The translations under genes and the position numbers were made by a program. DNA of 6,118 nt, taken from Gammaproteobacteria bacterium. GTDB lineage: Bacteria > Pseudomonadota > Gammaproteobacteria > UBA1113. The DNA lies in assembly GCA_019752835.1 (NCBI GenBank), contig JAIELR010000049.1, positions 1-6,118 of the forward strand, read 5' to 3'. Under the pieces are notes generated by a model. The model had not been told where the DNA came from. It did no database searches and saw nothing but the letters and a program-made list of their open reading frames with translations. Position 1 is the first letter of the stretch. Each line of letters starts with the position of its first letter. Below are positions 57-6,118 of the stretch, one piece after another.

Positions 57-296
57 CTAATTTATAATTAAATTTCGTAAGGGTTTATAAATATGATTTT
101 CTTGGCGTTTCAAAAAAATAACCGCCTTGCCACCCTCAGGGTGCACAAGCTCTACACGAGAAACACCGCTCCACCCGCCACGGCGTTTATTGGGTTCCTC
201 AAACCAATCGGCTTTGAGGTTCCATAATTTTTCAAAATTATCCAAGTTATTGGCTTTTAATATAGCTTGCCAATTTTCATTCATATAATCTTTCAT
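57..296 (-). pseudogene. Amino-terminal remnant of an InaA/Kdo-kinase-type LPS kinase
   Basis: A 79-residue frame resembles only the first third of the LPS kinase family that includes InaA and the extra WaaP-like kinases downstream of waaP in Pseudomonas. The recognisable part is WFEEPNKRRGGWSGVSRVEL (residues 31-50) followed by FLKRQENHIYK (61-71), which covers the glycine-rich nucleotide-loop region and the ATP-binding lysine strand. Full members run to roughly 230-250 residues and continue into the HRD catalytic loop. Here the similarity stops at about residue 76 and a TAG follows at 57-59. None of the three minus-strand frames in the remaining 56 bases continues the family pattern, so this looks like a truncation with loss of the rest rather than a simple frameshift. 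The ATG at 296 has only a weak purine-rich stretch upstream; the ATG at 284 is an alternative. Its place after waaP fits LPS core modification. A short intact protein is possible but unlikely to be a kinase. Confidence 0.6.
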
Positions 297-337: not shown

Positions 338-430
338 ATACTCTTCGCACGTCAATTTTGACGGCTGCAAGCCGCCCCGAGGGGCGAGGGCCATAGATGG
401 CCCGAGTCAAAACCGAATTGCTTTGAGTAT
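338..430 (-). repeat. Palindromic element copy 1 (93 bp), just after the waaP stop
   Basis: This is the shortest of three related palindromes. The ends are ATACTC (338-343) and GAGTAT (425-430). The 25-base arms align without gaps and match at 18 positions, in blocks of 6, 3, 2 and 7. The innermost block, TTTTGAC (356-362) with GTCAAAA (406-412), closes three adjacent hairpins: GGCT/AGCC (363-373), GCCCC/GGGGC (374-385) and GGGCCAT/ATGGCCC (388-403), giving a cloverleaf-like fold. The element starts four bases beyond the waaP TAA, so it is not translated. Transcribed from the minus strand it is followed by AGATTTTTATT, so it could also act as a terminator for the LPS operon. It lacks the inner arm (about 15 bp per side) that copies 2 and 3 have. 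Confidence 0.75.
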
Positions 431-433
431 ACT

Positions 434-1276
434 TTATAATGGCGTGTCAAAAAACTTGTGATGTCTGCGTATAAAATGCTTAGCCTTCTTTTTGACGGCA
501 AACCAATACTCAGAACGATCCTTTAATTCATCAACCCAAGGTTTATTGGCATAATAAGCCATAAACCGCAATATATCACGTTGCGTTACCCCAAAGTTGA
601 GTATGGAATAATAAAGGCTTGCTAAATCTTTCCGTATCCAACGCAAGGGCGTTTTTTTACGTAAGCCCGCGCGATGAAGATCCATAATGGTCACATCAGG
701 ATTTTCTGTCAACGGTTGTGTGATCATAAAATGGCAAGCATACAAATCACGGTGATTAACGCCATTTTGATGCAAAGCTCGTGTAATCTCAGCTATTTTT
801 TTTATTAAATTTTGTTTCGTTCGCCAAGACAGTTGATTACTTTTCCACTGCGTCGCAAGCGTGTCCATTCCTACTGCTGAAGGAATTTCATGAGTGATGA
901 CAAAGGAGCGTCTATTCAGTGGATTCAAGCCTGATGCACCAAAGCCAGCCACAATGGGTGCTTTAATATCTAACTCAGCCAAGCGCTTTAAAATGATGTA
1001 TTCATTTTTCGCCCCTAAAATGGCGGGTCGGCCAGAAAAAATATTTTTGACGATATCCGTCCATGCGGCGCCATGATGCTTTTTAATAAAAAAATTAGCA
1101 TCATTATGCGTAAACTTCAATGTTACACGCTGTTCAATTTGACGATATACCATACCCTCTGTTTGCATAATTTGATCAAAAAGGGGCAACGTCGTCCAGT
1201 AAGACAGCAAATCAGGCGTTAACTTTACCGATGCATTTTTTTGCTTTTTTAAGGGTAGCACGGTTATTAAGCTCAT
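434..1276 (-). CDS. waaP: Lipopolysaccharide core heptose(I) kinase WaaP/RfaP
   Basis: The 280-residue protein (E. coli WaaP is 265) is a eukaryotic-type kinase fold that transfers phosphate from ATP to heptose I of the LPS inner core, at the cytoplasmic face of the inner membrane. Visible family features are VYRQIEQRVTLKF (about 43-55), FFIKKHHG with the likely ATP-binding lysine (63-70), FSGRPAILGAKNEY (about 80-93), GLNPLNRRSFVIT (about 116-128), the catalytic loop NHRDLYACHF with Asp177 as likely base (174-183), and IMDLHRAGLR with metal-binding Asp199 (197-206). The start at 1276 is chosen because AAGGG (1284-1288) sits seven bases upstream and the family similarity begins nearby. The longer frame back to 1378 would run through repeat copy 2. 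It begins ten bases after the waaC stop, and the ribosome site overlaps that stop, so the two are probably translationally coupled. It ends normally at TAA (434-436), just before repeat copy 1. Confidence 0.93.
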   Translation of the reverse strand: MSLITVLPLKKQKNASVKLTPDLLSYWTTLPLFDQIMQTEGMVYRQIEQRVTLKFTHNDANFFIKKHHGAAWTDIVKNIFSGRPAILGAKNEYIILKRLAELDIKAPIVAGFGASGLNPLNRRSFVITHEIPSAVGMDTLATQWKSNQLSWRTKQNLIKKIAEITRALHQNGVNHRDLYACHFMITQPLTENPDVTIMDLHRAGLRKKTPLRWIRKDLASLYYSILNFGVTQRDILRFMAYYANKPWVDELKDRSEYWFAVKKKAKHFIRRHHKFFDTPL

Positions 1277-1283
1277 TGCACAA

Positions 1284-1288
1284 CCCTT
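1284..1288 (-). promoter_or_regulatory. Ribosome binding site of waaP, overlapping the waaC stop
   Basis: On the minus strand AAGGG lies seven bases before the waaP ATG at 1276. Its first two bases are the last two of the waaC TAA (1287-1289). It lies immediately outside repeat copy 2, so the insertion left this site intact. It decides the waaP start in favour of 1276. Confidence 0.65.
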
Positions 1289-2429
1289 ATACTCTTCGCA
1301 CGTCAATTTTCGGCGTTGTTGCTGTTGACATCTCGCCGTCCTCATGCACAGGAAGTGCACTCCGGCGGCTCGAGTCAACAGCGCCTAGCCGAAAGCCGAC
1401 GTGCTTTGAGTATATAATGTCGAGCAACTGGCTCAAAACCAGTTGCGGAGAAATCGTTGTAAAACAGGGTGGAAAATCCTTTTCGGTGACTTTTTTAATC
1501 TGGCATTGCTCTTGCATACAGGGCGCGCAATCGAACTTTGCGGATAAATGATATTGATTTCGACCCAAAGTGCCGGTGAGTGCTGGATTTGTGGGGCCAT
1601 AAAGTGACACTGTTGGCGTACCAAATGAAGCCGCCAAATGCCCTAAACCGGTATCGACAGCAACACAGGCCGTCACTTTATGTAATAAACTTGCGAGTTG
1701 CGCCAGTGATAATTGAGGCAGCAAAACAGCACCTGAGGTCTCAGTAATGCGCTGAGCACGTTCATGTTCAGCGGGCGATCCCCACGGCACTAATACTGTC
1801 AATCCCGCCTTTTTAGCTAACTGCGCCAATTCATGCCAATAGGATTCTGGCCAGTGCTTGGTTGGCCAGGTCGTGCCGTGAAAAAACAGTATAGTATTCT
1901 TCTCGGCTACTAAAGGAAAATCACTATCTAAAGGTAAATCCACCACAGAATGGGGAGCATCGACGGGCATTTTGTAGCCTAGTGCTTTTGCCATTAATTC
2001 TCTGGTACGCGTGATGGCGTGTTGTGCAAAAAGAACGGTATATTTTTTATTGTAAAACAGGGACGCAATGGGCTCACGTGCCGAACGAAAATCAGCACCC
2101 GCACGAGGTCCTTTTGCAAATCGTGTAATAACTCCACTTTTAAATAAGCCTTGCGCATCGATGATGAGATCGTACTTATCTTCACGTAAGCTTGAAATAA
2201 ACGATTTTATTTCTTTCAATGAACGCAACCAACCTTGTTTGCGCCAACGTCGTAATGCAACGGGTATCACTTTTTTCACATTGGGCAACCAACGTGGAAT
2301 TTCTTGAAAACCTTCCTCAACCACCCAATGAAACTCAATGCCTACGATCGCATTGGCCGCATCCGTAATGGCTGGCAATGTGTGAATAATATCACCCATA
2401 GAAGAAGTTTTTACAATCAACACCTTCAT
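1287..2429 (-). CDS. waaC: ADP-heptose:LPS heptosyltransferase I (WaaC/RfaC) with a repeat-encoded C-terminal tail
   Basis: A GT-B fold, family 9 glycosyltransferase that adds the first heptose from ADP-heptose to Kdo of Kdo2-lipid A at the inner membrane. It opens with MKVLIVKTSSMGDIIHTLPA, the standard WaaC start with likely catalytic Asp13, and carries LIIDAQGLFKSG (about 88-99), FFHGTTWPTKHWP (about 182-194) and the ADP-heptose motif DTGLGHLAASFGTPTVSLYG (259-278). A Cys-rich stretch follows (Cys301, 304, 309, 322). The family-like part ends at LLDII (about 339). The last 41 residues (340-380) come entirely from repeat copy 2, reading YSK, then RLGAVD, then STATT, then KIDVRRV. Total 380 residues against 319 in E. 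coli. The start at 2429 fits the family; in-frame GTGs at 2438 and 2447 would add three or six residues, and the latter overlaps the waaF stop as GTGA. No good ribosome site precedes any of them, because repeat copy 3 separates the gene from its likely original site. Confidence 0.93.
   Translation of the reverse strand: MKVLIVKTSSMGDIIHTLPAITDAANAIVGIEFHWVVEEGFQEIPRWLPNVKKVIPVALRRWRKQGWLRSLKEIKSFISSLREDKYDLIIDAQGLFKSGVITRFAKGPRAGADFRSAREPIASLFYNKKYTVLFAQHAITRTRELMAKALGYKMPVDAPHSVVDLPLDSDFPLVAEKNTILFFHGTTWPTKHWPESYWHELAQLAKKAGLTVLVPWGSPAEHERAQRITETSGAVLLPQLSLAQLASLLHKVTACVAVDTGLGHLAASFGTPTVSLYGPTNPALTGTLGRNQYHLSAKFDCAPCMQEQCQIKKVTEKDFPPCFTTISPQLVLSQLLDIIYSKHVGFRLGAVDSSRRSALPVHEDGEMSTATTPKIDVRRV
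1289..1413 (-). repeat. Palindromic element copy 2 (125 bp), translated as the WaaC tail
   Basis: The ends are ATACTC (1289-1294) and GAGTAT (1408-1413). The arms are about 40 bases and pair in long perfect blocks: GCACGTC/GACGTGC (1298-1304 with 1398-1404), TTTCGGC/GCCGAAA (1308-1314 with 1388-1394) and GCTGTTGAC/GTCAACAGC (1321-1329 with 1374-1382). The centre forms a nested hairpin of CGCCG/CGGCG (1334-1338 with 1363-1367) enclosing TGCAC/GTGCA (1345-1349 with 1355-1359, five-base loop). It is the best-paired copy. The frame of waaC crosses the whole element, and the TAA that stops it is completed by the first bases outside. Confidence 0.85.
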
Positions 2430-2450
2430 ACTCTTCACACTCTTCACACT
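2424..2450 (-). repeat. Three tandem 9-bp units at the waaC start
   Basis: CTTCATACT (2424-2432) is followed by two copies of CTTCACACT (2433-2441, 2442-2450). On the minus strand this gives AGTGTGAAG twice and then AGTATGAAG, placing GTG, GTG and ATG nine bases apart in the same frame, at 2447, 2438 and 2429. The other two repeat copies have only one TCTTCGCAC unit at this position, so this is a local expansion at the end of copy 3. It also creates the waaF stop codon (2444-2446). Confidence 0.7.
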
Positions 2451-2579
2451 TCAATTTTCTGCGTTGTTGCGGTTGACTGCTGTAGGGGTCGGCCCCCGTG
2501 CAGACCCGAAGACGGACAATCACCGGGGGTTGCCTCTACGTCAACCGCGCCTAGCCGCAAATCGGATTGCTTTGAGTAT
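2428..2579 (-). repeat. Palindromic element copy 3 (152 bp), translated as the WaaF tail and forming the waaC start
   Basis: The longest copy, with ends ATACTC (2428-2433) and GAGTAT (2574-2579). It shares with copy 2 the inner arm GTTGTTGC-GTTGAC on the left and GTCAAC-GCGCCTAGCCG on the right; the inner stem GCGGTTGAC/GTCAACCGC (2469-2477 with 2540-2548) is perfect over nine pairs. The centre is unrelated to the other copies and holds CTGC/GCAG (2477-2480 with 2500-2503) around GGGG/CCCC (2485-2488 with 2493-2496), with CCCCCG/CGGGGG (2493-2498 with 2524-2529) as an alternative pairing. The waaF frame runs through nearly all of it. Its last two bases are the first two of the waaC ATG. Confidence 0.83.
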
Positions 2580-3598
2580 AACACCTCTTCCAACGCGGTT
2601 TGCACTCGCTCAGGAGGAAGTTGTTTTAAACAATTTAAATGGGTCAGTGGGCATTCCCGTTTAAAACAAGGACTGCAACTCAAACCCAAACGAACGATTT
2701 GAACTTTATCTGACAAAGGAGGCGTAAAGCGAGGATCAGAAGAGCCATAAATAGCCACCAATGGCCGATCCAATGCAGCTGCGATGTGCATCAGCCCGGA
2801 GTCATTACTTACCACCGCTTCTGCTTCGGATAACAAATCGATAGCCTCTGCTAAACTCGTTTTTCCTGCCAAGTTAGTGCATTGCCCGTTGGTTGCTTTG
2901 TTAATGTCTTCACAGACAGCAAAATCATTTTTCGAACCAAACAAACAAACCTGGCCGCCTTTTGCTAGCCATGCATTGGCAATCTCGGCATAGTAATTCT
3001 CAGGCCAGCGCTTGGCAGGCCCAAACTCTGCGCCTGGGCACAAAGCCAAAATAGAAGTTGCGGCCATTAATCCAAATTTTTCTTTGGCTGCATTGACTGT
3101 TTCAGGCGAAACACGCAACTTGGGGCGCGGATACGGTTGTGTTAACAGCTGATCATTCGGCAAGGCCAGTGCCATAAAACGCTCTATCATGAGCGGATAC
3201 TGTTCTTTATCCAAGACGCGTATATCATTTAAGACCAAAAAGCGTAACTCACCGCGCCAGCCAATGCGCTTTGGAATCTTCGCAAACCAGGGAATAAGGG
3301 CTGATTTAAAGGAATTAGGCAGTACATAAGCAACATCATAATTACCTGATTTCAGCTGCTGGCCTATTTTTTTTCTTGCAGCCAATAATAATTGCCCGTG
3401 CCCGATAGGCATAGAAATAGCTTGATTAACCTCAGGCATACGCTCGAGCAGAGGACGGCTCCAGTCAGGTGCAAGCACATCGATAACGGCAAGAGGGTCT
3501 ATTTCCTTCAACTTGGTAAATAGAGTTTGAGCCATTACCATGTCCCCCACCCACGAAGGACCGACTATCAATATACGTTTTGGATGTTGTTCTGCCAT
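2444..3598 (-). CDS. waaF: ADP-heptose:LPS heptosyltransferase II (WaaF/RfaF) with a repeat-encoded C-terminal tail
   Basis: Family 9 glycosyltransferase that adds the second heptose to heptose I of the LPS inner core, using ADP-heptose. It starts KRILIVGPSWVGDMVMAQ (about 7-23, with the conserved Asp19), then has YVLPNSFKSALIPWF (about 91-105), CPGAEFGPAKRWPENYY (187-203), VSNDSGLMHIAAALDRPLVA (263-282), the YGSSDPRFTPP loop, and CSPCFKRECPLTHLNC (308-323). These are typical WaaF features and the family-like part ends near LEEVL (about 340), against 348 residues in E. coli. Residues 341-384 are encoded by repeat copy 3 (YSK, RLGAVD, a variable centre, then STATT and KIEV). The start at 3598 is chosen over the in-frame codon at 3655 because AAAGGT lies six bases upstream (3605-3610) and the longer form would overlap the upstream gene. 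It follows the zinc-ribbon gene by 17 bases. Confidence 0.94.
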   Translation of the reverse strand: MAEQHPKRILIVGPSWVGDMVMAQTLFTKLKEIDPLAVIDVLAPDWSRPLLERMPEVNQAISMPIGHGQLLLAARKKIGQQLKSGNYDVAYVLPNSFKSALIPWFAKIPKRIGWRGELRFLVLNDIRVLDKEQYPLMIERFMALALPNDQLLTQPYPRPKLRVSPETVNAAKEKFGLMAATSILALCPGAEFGPAKRWPENYYAEIANAWLAKGGQVCLFGSKNDFAVCEDINKATNGQCTNLAGKTSLAEAIDLLSEAEAVVSNDSGLMHIAAALDRPLVAIYGSSDPRFTPPLSDKVQIVRLGLSCSPCFKRECPLTHLNCLKQLPPERVQTALEEVLYSKQSDLRLGAVDVEATPGDCPSSGLHGGRPLQQSTATTQKIEV

Positions 3599-3847: not shown

Positions 3848-3984
3848 ACCATATGCCCAAACAAAAAGCACCTATTGCATAGCTGCGGGGCGGCGCTGTA
3901 AAGGCAGCCCCCTGTGACTTCGGGCTGTTTGTAGGAACAGCCCCCCGTGGCTGCCCGTGACTTTAATGAAGTTGGGCATTTGGT
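3848..3984. repeat. MITE/REP-like palindromic element (137 bp)
   Basis: It is bounded by 13-base terminal inverted repeats matching at 12 positions: ACCATATGCCCAA (3848-3860) and TTGGGCATTTGGT (3972-3984). Inside are stacked inverted repeats: GGCAGCC/GGCTGCC (3903-3909 with 3949-3955) enclosing GGGCTGTT/AACAGCCC (3922-3929 with 3936-3943, six-base loop), plus GGGGCGGC/GCAGCCCC (3887-3894 with 3904-3911, one mismatch). A GTAG tetranucleotide (3931-3934) stands before an AACAGCC/GGCTG hairpin, the arrangement seen in REP sequences handled by RAYT transposases. GTGACTT occurs twice, 43 bases apart (3914 and 3957), so the core is an imperfect tandem of two units. No target duplication is obvious. 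It is unrelated to the three waa-operon elements. Confidence 0.6.
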
Positions 3985-4193: not shown

Positions 4194-6118
4194 TTATTTA
4201 TCAAACAAAGATGTATGTGAATTGGGATTATTTTCTTCTTGTTTCAGACGTTCTGCTTTTTTGGGTTTAAATAGAGTTGTAAAAACAGCTGTTGCAGCAG
4301 AATTGAATGTTTTTTGATACTGGCCAGACAGCGTTGGTTTAACCGTTTTGCCTTTATAGGCACTCATTTCCCCAACGTCACGACCAATTTTAGCAGAGCC
4401 AACGGGGGCTGCAATGCCCAAAATAACTAATAATGTGCCTGTTAAGAAAGGTAAAGTGCCGATACCTCCAGTTAAAACACCTATGGTAACAAGAGTTCCA
4501 ATAAAAATACTGCCTCCTACGATGACGCCAGCTGCAGTACCAATATTCTTTTTGGTTTGTGTACTCCAATGAGAATTGTAATGAACTTCTTTGTCTAGAT
4601 CTGTTTTCGTTTTTTCCAGGATTTCCATGTCAGGTTGGCGGTCCTGTATAATAGCATCAACAGGTTCGTGAAAATGTTTAAAAATCACACCGGCCTCTTT
4701 GACAGTAAAATCAGAACCATCTACCACGGTTTTAATCAGCTTATTCACATGGTTATTTACCCATTCATTATCTGATTTAAGAGTTTTATTTTCTATCGTG
4801 CCTGTCTCATCATTTTGTTCTGAGACTTTTACAAATAGCGTGAGCGCCTTGACTCCTTTAAATAGTTTATCAAAATCTTGTTCTTCAACATAACGAAGTG
4901 ATTCATTAGAATCATCAGAAACAATCATATTATCAATAAAACTAGTTAAGCAATTGTGGCTCTTACTTAAAATCCAATCAAAAATGACTTCAGATTCTTT
5001 AAAAGAAATATCTGCATTCCAAACTACGGCTTGTACCAGCTTTTTTAACGCATCTGTTTGAAACACCTCTGAACTAAATTTCAGTAATAGCTCATATGCA
5101 TTTAAAGCTTTAATGAAAGCAAGCGATTGATCCTTAGATGCATTCATTAATTTGGTGTTATCGTTATGAGTTACATATTGAAATTCGGGAAATAAGTTAC
5201 GATAATTCTCCCAAGTTTGGAGCCATTCATGCGGTAGCTGCTCATTCCCGTAAGGACCGAAAGCAGAAAGTCCAGGGTGATTAAATAAATCGGTAGCATA
5301 CCTTAAATTAAGGGTATTCTTTTTGTTAAAATCATCATCCAGTTGAGAAATTTCACCCGGTAAAATGCTGTTGGTACAGATATCATCGAATGGCTGTGGT
5401 GCATAAATATGATCAATGTGCATGGCGGGACGAAAACGGTAGAAAATATCTCGTTGTTGATCTGGCATGCTCTCAGGTGGACGAGCAATTTCGGCTGCTG
5501 TAAAAGGCAAGCCTGTTTGAGGATTATACTGAATTGTTCTAGCTTGTTGAGTGGTTTGAGTATGGGGATGATAAGCAAATGCAGCATCGATTTTGTGCCC
5601 ATGTTGTATAGGGTATTCTGGCGTAAAACCTCCCGGGGCAACGCTTGTAGCGCTATATTCAAGAGGTGTGCCTGGCGCACTCGAAACAGCAGCATTAAAA
5701 TCACCGATAGTAACATTGGTTGTATCATCCGTAACCTCAGCCTTTTTTCGATTTTGAAACAGAAAGCTTAAAATGCTTTTCTCATGCTTTAATGGAGTAT
5801 GCTGAAAAGCAGCATGAACATTTCGGATACATAATTTTTCACCTGATTTTAAAGTAAGGTGGTTTTGCCAACTGTCGATGGTTCCATAATGTGTGCCCCG
5901 TGCATAATTATTTGCACTAAATTTGTTTTTGCGCACGAGAGTAATATTGGCACCAGCATCAGCTACTTTTTCTTTACCTGCGTTATATTTATCAACTTCC
6001 ATGGTGACTTCATATTGGTCCCCAATCACGGCCAATATTTCCTTAAGCAAGCCTTTGTCAGCTGTAATTTCCTGCAAGGTAATTACATCAGGCGAGGCAT
6101 TGTTAGTCATTCGTTTTA
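4194..6118 (-). CDS. EEP-fold hydrolase with C-terminal membrane hairpin, effector-like, 5' partial
   Basis: Residue numbers count from the ATG at 6110. Residues about 1-285 match the endonuclease/exonuclease/phosphatase fold: DVITLQEI with metal-binding Glu14, NVHAAF (97-102), VTIGDFNA with Asp137 and Asn139, HIDHIYAP (231-238), and LFNHPGLSAF with likely catalytic His278. The family spans nucleases, inositol-lipid phosphatases and sphingomyelinases, so the substrate cannot be named. The usual first strand with its conserved Asn is missing, no ribosome site precedes the ATG, and the frame stays open to 6118. The real start is therefore probably outside the window. Residues 286-510 are mostly helical with an internal duplication (about 333-380 and 417-480). 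Two hydrophobic segments (about 523-546 and 549-572) would form a membrane hairpin. The tail is charged, with ERLKQEE at 620-626, like the E-block secretion signals of Dot/Icm substrates. By eye it is more AT-rich than waaF and waaC. Effector status is inference. Confidence 0.75.
   Translation of the reverse strand, partial: KRMTNNASPDVITLQEITADKGLLKEILAVIGDQYEVTMEVDKYNAGKEKVADAGANITLVRKNKFSANNYARGTHYGTIDSWQNHLTLKSGEKLCIRNVHAAFQHTPLKHEKSILSFLFQNRKKAEVTDDTTNVTIGDFNAAVSSAPGTPLEYSATSVAPGGFTPEYPIQHGHKIDAAFAYHPHTQTTQQARTIQYNPQTGLPFTAAEIARPPESMPDQQRDIFYRFRPAMHIDHIYAPQPFDDICTNSILPGEISQLDDDFNKKNTLNLRYATDLFNHPGLSAFGPYGNEQLPHEWLQTWENYRNLFPEFQYVTHNDNTKLMNASKDQSLAFIKALNAYELLLKFSSEVFQTDALKKLVQAVVWNADISFKESEVIFDWILSKSHNCLTSFIDNMIVSDDSNESLRYVEEQDFDKLFKGVKALTLFVKVSEQNDETGTIENKTLKSDNEWVNNHVNKLIKTVVDGSDFTVKEAGVIFKHFHEPVDAIIQDRQPDMEILEKTKTDLDKEVHYNSHWSTQTKKNIGTAAGVIVGGSIFIGTLVTIGVLTGGIGTLPFLTGTLLVILGIAAPVGSAKIGRDVGEMSAYKGKTVKPTLSGQYQKTFNSAATAVFTTLFKPKKAERLKQEENNPNSHTSLFDK

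Follow-up and report, generated by a model that had tools for sequence, protein, structure and literature searches.

Three palindromic elements in the waa operon

We analysed a stretch of 6,118 nucleotides (hereafter the window) from contig JAIELR010000049.1 of a Gammaproteobacteria bacterium (assembly GCA_019752835.1). Its minus strand carries an operon in the order waaF-waaC-waaP, encoding heptosyltransferase II (waaF, positions 2444-3598), heptosyltransferase I (waaC, 1287-2429) and the core heptose kinase (waaP, 434-1276), with one palindromic element at each of three successive junctions. Copy 1 (337-431, 95 bp) lies just past the waaP stop, and copies 2 (1288-1414, 127 bp) and 3 (2427-2580, 154 bp) supply the C-terminal tails of waaC and waaF, respectively; these spans and lengths include the end dinucleotides. 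All three are of the ERIC type, copy 2 in canonical form, and very probably inserted independently of one another, as copies of a miniature mobile element of the ERIC family, a gene-less palindrome of about 125-127 bp that inserts at and duplicates TA.

The palindromes reported in a preliminary description, with their ATACTC/GAGTAT ends, were located again, and for each of them none of 200 shuffles folded as well (fold z -6.1, -9.5 and -3.4 for copies 1, 2 and 3, the last folded as 2436-2580). A covariance model, R1, trained on copy 2 and 21 copies from relatives and thus not on copies 1 and 3, detects all three (E=4.6e-9 for copy 1, 5.7e-27 for copy 2 and 7.6e-14 for 2436-2580 of copy 3, values that are rough because the calibration was short). 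As described earlier, the copies share one orientation relative to transcription, all reading TATACTCAAAGCA...GAAGAGTAT (TATACTC...GAGTAT) on the operon (minus) strand. Copies 1 and 3 keep the seven-base ends and copy 2 alone keeps the ERIC length of about 127 bp; TA flanks copies 1 and 2 on both sides and copy 3 on the left side only, and the right arm of copy 3 contains a tandem duplication of about 10 nt. The centres had been called unrelated; that of copy 2 is the family standard and is up to 95% identical to copies in G509, the nearest genome compared, and copies 1 and 3 have other centres.

The placement at the 3' ends of the three genes was correct as to the consecutive junctions and as to copy 1, which starts 2 nt past the waaP stop and ends 40 nt ahead of the next ATG, but copies 2 and 3 lie within coding sequence, where they prolong the reading frames of waaC and waaF. 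Copy 2 encodes the last 41 residues of WaaC (YSKHVGFRLGAVD...KIDVRRV), with the stop at its right junction, and copy 3 the last 44 residues of WaaF (YSKQSDLRLGAVD...TTQKIEV), its right end overlapping the waaC start codon (GAGTATG). The waaF stop is followed by the waaC start after 14 nt and the waaC stop by the waaP start after 10 nt. In a motif test for such tails only the window's own two proteins were positive among the 240 homologous proteins listed, which were the best 120 of about 8000 scored in each of two homologue searches. Where copies in relatives fall in the last codons of a gene, the frame often closes with a TGA around position 18 of the element; long tails like those of WaaC and WaaF are unusual, since just 2 of the 15 last-codon cases read past the element.

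GC-rich hairpins at gene ends might suggest that terminators or attenuators evolved at these very sites, and a T-run (GATTTTTATT) indeed stands within a few nucleotides 3' of copy 1. No T-run follows copies 2 and 3, however, terminator-like sites are not enriched (7 versus 7.3 in shuffles), and homologous copies are dispersed in other genomes, which already refutes this account as an origin; we find it scarcely credible. Termination may nevertheless be a candidate role for copy 1.

The operon is also present in G509, found via a sample of the class and then its order, where waaF, waaC (72% identical) and a relative of waaP follow in the same order and waaF and waaC overlap by ATGA. R1 finds no element at these junctions and has one weak match (E=0.053) elsewhere in the sequence scanned, yet G509 as a whole contains about 67 places that match it. 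With a single TA in place of the element, the window waaC would end ...LLDIIRVVQ stop (flanks read by eye), at the same length as waaC of G509 (...LLDIVEPGK stop). An insertion into the waaC stop codon was considered and rejected because the reconstructed empty gene ends at the G509 length. In the order of G001, a second genome used below, relatives of waaC (37-47% identical) occur in 14 of 143 genomes.

The preliminary description had offered an intercistronic role as a reason for retention. In the form weighed here, selection would keep the elements because they help to process the mRNA, protect its 3' end or set the waaF:waaC:waaP ratio. Strong folds, the paired changes in half of the R1 consensus pairs and the T-run after copy 1 agree with such a job, as do an excess of copies near stop codons over the TA expectation in relatives and Yersinia ERIC, which passages of PMC2229807 and PMC10969869 report to act on upstream mRNA, depending on orientation, via an RNase E site. 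Yet the element is missing from the corresponding junctions in the nearest relative, copies near stops in relatives have no orientation bias, the centres of copies 1 and 3 differ, and paired changes in palindromes can also come from the DNA level. We regard the proposal as unlikely.

A family model and its homology to ERIC

The arm pattern had one exact match in a collection of genome contigs, which led to G001; with up to 3 mismatches allowed, the pattern occurs 12 times in this genome and the reversed control not at all. For R1, 22 of 28 full copies were aligned, leaving out copies 1 and 3 of the window and four others, and 16 of the 32 consensus pairs show changes on both sides that preserve pairing. 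R1 matches were found in at least 41 of the 143 genomes of the G001 order (E <= 0.001), in 9 of 10 genomes of the G509 order (E <= 0.01) and in at least 55 of 369 genomes drawn from the class (E <= 1e-4), the first and third counts being lower bounds with few candidates scored per genome. G509 alone yielded 78 R1 rows at E <= 0.001, or about 67 places after merging strands, among them partial copies and a type of about 163 bp. The element is thus very abundant in relatives, as had been surmised. By arithmetic from 67 places in the 2.7 Mb of G509, about 0.1 clusters of three copies in 2.24 kb would be expected per genome. No Rfam family reached its own threshold in the window, positions 1231-2640 had no match in the plasmid collection, the window none in the phage collection, and the viral contigs held no match to the arm pattern.

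Although the family had not been recognised at first, both R1 and a sequence-only profile assign it to ERIC. R1 matched 10 of 12 E. coli ERIC loci over their full length, with E from 1.2e-12 (the K-12 copy) to 6.4e-7; one of the remaining two gave a short match (5e-5) and the other none. A narrow sequence-only profile matched ERIC weakly (best E 0.006), giving the K-12 element 11.2 bits versus 8.0 for the best of 500 scrambles. With a wider profile, built from usable copies of 43 of 62 intermediate loci together with the 22 and copy 2, 8 of the 14 ERIC loci scored at E 3.1e-4 or better (5.6e-9 for the best one, 16-32 bits), and none of 500 pairing-preserving scrambles of one ERIC exceeded 8.6 bits. 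The K-12 ERIC has seven-base ends identical to those of the window elements. Whole-element homology, TA duplication, a long imperfect stem-loop and, in relatives, dispersed multicopy occurrence all agree with ERIC membership, and copy 2 has in addition the length of about 127 bp and the TATACTC/GAGTATA inverted ends.

A separate, lineage-specific family, resembling the palindromic elements of Rickettsia or the Coxiella QMITEs and similar to ERIC by convergence, would account for the weak narrow match and for in-frame sites in enzyme genes of the kind used by the Rickettsia elements. The far better scores of the wider profile than of scrambles and the shared ends with K-12 ERIC speak against convergence, as does QMITE2, which measures 150-190 bp with 7-11 nt duplications according to passages of PMC5896051, and we consider such a family very improbable.

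Copies at gene ends and inside genes of relatives

To describe where copies lie, 120 stretches around copies in seven genomes were searched, which gave 131 profile matches; removal of duplicates, of short matches and of matches close to the end of a stretch left 124. TA stood on both sides of 71 of the 124 copies as aligned, and of 102 if a shift of 2 nt was allowed. The reconstructed empty sites lay at -3 to +10 nt from a stop codon in 40 of 124 cases. Of the 102 copies that TA flanks on either side, 28 were located within an open reading frame (ORF) and 74 were extragenic, and 35 of these 74 fell at -3 to +10 nt from a stop, compared with 12.35 expected from the TA sites of the same loci; simulated TA placement put at most 25 near stops in 20,000 simulations. 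The copies are consequently not spread regardless of gene ends, and the earlier suggestion that the element targets gene ends is upheld as far as an excess there is concerned. In E. coli, taken as a gene-end control, 3 of 10 ERIC loci have their end at 1-5 nt from the stop of an ORF, and two of these three are probably one site, numbers too small for a judgement.

This excess might reflect targeting, with a transposition machinery that prefers stop-codon regions, rather than survival. In spacers with at least four TA sites the copies tend to lie on the stop side (n=30, mean rank 0.35, Kolmogorov-Smirnov P=9e-4) and the flank before the TA is A-rich, which together with the excess over 12.35 favours targeting. 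Survivors would, however, also be pushed stopward by the avoidance of promoters and start regions, and copies inside enzyme genes show that stop regions are not required, so that targeting in place of survival appears rather doubtful to us.

The three copies had been noted to share one orientation, and in relatives orientation proved to depend on position. Near stops (-36 to +20 nt) 26 copies were in sense and 24 in antisense, a random distribution that makes the orientation of copy 1 uninformative. The 32 of 124 empty sites inside an ORF comprised 23 sense and 9 antisense copies (P=0.02, uncorrected); half of these sites (16) are doubtful, being within 120 nt of the longest possible start. 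Random orientation throughout was accordingly rejected as a description, since it applies near stops only. The sense bias of ORF-internal copies fits copies 2 and 3 of the window, where the frames continue waaC and waaF.

Fourteen copies lie deep in an ORF (11 sense, 3 antisense), and ten of them keep the ORF open in frame, each adding 123 nt or 41 codons and all in sense. The same 123 nt is the commonest net insertion (61 of 124 copies), which means that whole codons are added. Eight of the ten are in proteins of clear families: TilS (locus L147), Lnt (L208), NadE (L113), HemC (L151), glycyl-tRNA synthetase (L209), LpxK (L210), DprA (L144) and CarB (L254). The second stretch of the PP-loop match of TilS begins at profile position 95, near the insert end; judging from the insert positions, the family region is likewise entered in NadE, LpxK, HemC and CarB, and the inserts of Lnt, DprA and glycyl-tRNA synthetase are between domains or at a domain edge. 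Of the other two, the insert of a TatD protein (L219) stands ahead of the domain and may precede the true start, and that of L137 is in a protein without a family. The frame of the window tails is used by 8 of the 10 (by eye), and we infer that the inserts are translated as protein. Open frames are more frequent in antisense (101) than in sense (56) among the 71 copies of suitable length, which gives an expected sense share of 0.36; ten of ten in sense then has P ~3e-5 if copies are independent, a value qualified by their not being fully so. The stop-codon excess and the sense-only in-frame copies make gene-end placement and, for in-frame copies, orientation traits of the family.

Several points weigh against the reading of the three elements as ERIC insertions with these traits. 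The second TA is missing from copy 3, where the right-hand TA is replaced by TG, and the narrow profile matched ERIC weakly. Moreover, genes were represented by plain ORFs of at least 100 codons, the P values treat related copies as independent, and the ORF is interrupted by 4 of the 14 deep copies (three antisense, one sense). As ERIC insertions, copies would enter at TA, duplicate it and persist where they are least harmful, just past a stop or within proteins, where they may be tolerated thanks to a sense frame that is frequently open and, in the commonest copies, a gain of 41 whole codons. Ribosomes translating waaF and waaC would pass through the hairpin and meet a new stop 14 nt (waaF) or 10 nt (waaC) ahead of the following start, which would keep stop and start close together. 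By analogy with Yersinia ERIC, the transcribed hairpins may alter mRNA processing.

Element centres and comparison with known systems

The apex of copy 3 is a pair of GTAG...CTAC repeats resembling a REPIN (2482-2539, 58 bp, no strand assigned). It has 26 matches in genome G512 and 4 in G513 (75-80% identical) and none in 8 other genomes of the order; of the 12 loci fetched, 10 lack any ERIC-profile match in their vicinity and 2 adjoin one. The apex therefore has both GTAG...CTAC ends and independent dispersed copies, as GTAG REPINs do. The centre of copy 1 matches two places in G509, both beside ERIC copies. In the same genome, 16 of 20 weak R1 places examined are elements of about 163 bp (one of 176) with the same ends and arms and another palindromic centre (L276-L282, L284, L287-L294). 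A GC-rich hairpin in the spacer beyond the zf-CHCC gene of the window (3894-3965), with GTAG and GCAGCCCCC/GGCTGCC motifs, resembles the repeat pair of copy 3 in style.

Elsewhere in the window, the ORF after waaP (60-296, minus strand) begins like the next gene of G509 (MKDYMNENWQAIL versus MKDYINNSWEPI) and ends after 79 residues, compared with 264 for its counterpart. An ORF of 638 residues (4194-6110, minus strand) matched nothing in Pfam or NCBIfam at E <= 0.001 and gave one weak PHROG match (0.004). Among the homologues from outside the window, a protein of 633 residues (P0011) fuses domains of the waaC and waaP types, which correspond to the two genes next to copy 2. As to the 638-residue ORF, its GDFN and HIDH motifs are presumably like those of endonuclease/exonuclease/phosphatase proteins.

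We tentatively propose, while thinking it somewhat less probable than its opposite, that in these lineages this ERIC-family element, whose palindromic centres can be exchanged, has turned into a coding mobile element. Its sense frame and its 123-nt net length would be kept for translation as a 41-residue insert in mid-enzyme or at protein ends, while copies after stops would stay silent. On this view the tails of waaF and waaC would represent the same strategy of a tolerated peptide, in its gene-end form. The analysis places ERIC, known from enterobacteria and vibrios, in other gammaproteobacteria, some of whose genomes contain dozens of copies. Owing to its in-frame copies in relatives, the family is of more interest than the waa cluster itself. 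A 2011 study by Zo, cited in PMC10969869, deals with ERIC among Gammaproteobacteria and may overlap with the present findings. Among the titles and abstracts listed in searches of open-licence literature, none reported ERIC in Legionellales, ERIC inside such enzymes or REP pairs in ERIC.

With ERIC (also IRU or RU-1) the elements share the length of about 127 bp, the TATACTC/GAGTATA ends, the TA duplication and full-length homology. In-frame C-terminal fusion is likewise described for the ECA3499 amidase, along with ERIC within small ORFs, in passages of PMC2759123, and insertion at gene 3' ends for Yersinia in parts of PMC10969869. They differ in a lineage outside the Enterobacteriaceae and Vibrionaceae covered by those parts of PMC10969869, a diverged internal sequence, 123 nt as the commonest net insertion, sites inside enzyme domains and the replaced centres of copies 1 and 3. 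The GTAG REPs, which supply stops to ORFs according to passages of PMC3733652, are matched by the apex of copy 3, which begins with GTAG, ends with CTAC and recurs in G512 and G513, but here the pair is a passenger within an ERIC-type element. QMITE1 and QMITE2 of Coxiella are miniature inverted-repeat transposable elements whose copies overlap the 3' ends of genes and can lengthen the protein at its C-terminus (by 33 residues in EnhC), but they are larger and their duplications comprise 2-3 nt, variable in sequence, or, in QMITE2, 7-11 nt (portions of PMC5896051), whereas the duplication here is TA. The Rickettsia palindromic elements (RPE), reported inside proteins in passages of PMC2229807, are likewise mobile palindromes in frame within conserved protein genes, as seen here in relatives; the likeness is one of use, not of sequence comparison, the homology being to ERIC. 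ERIC is thereby joined to the problem posed by RPE, the tolerance of an in-frame mobile palindrome in enzymes such as TilS, LpxK, HemC and CarB, and the figures given here for the excess at stop codons and for the restriction of in-frame copies to the sense orientation can be tested by others.

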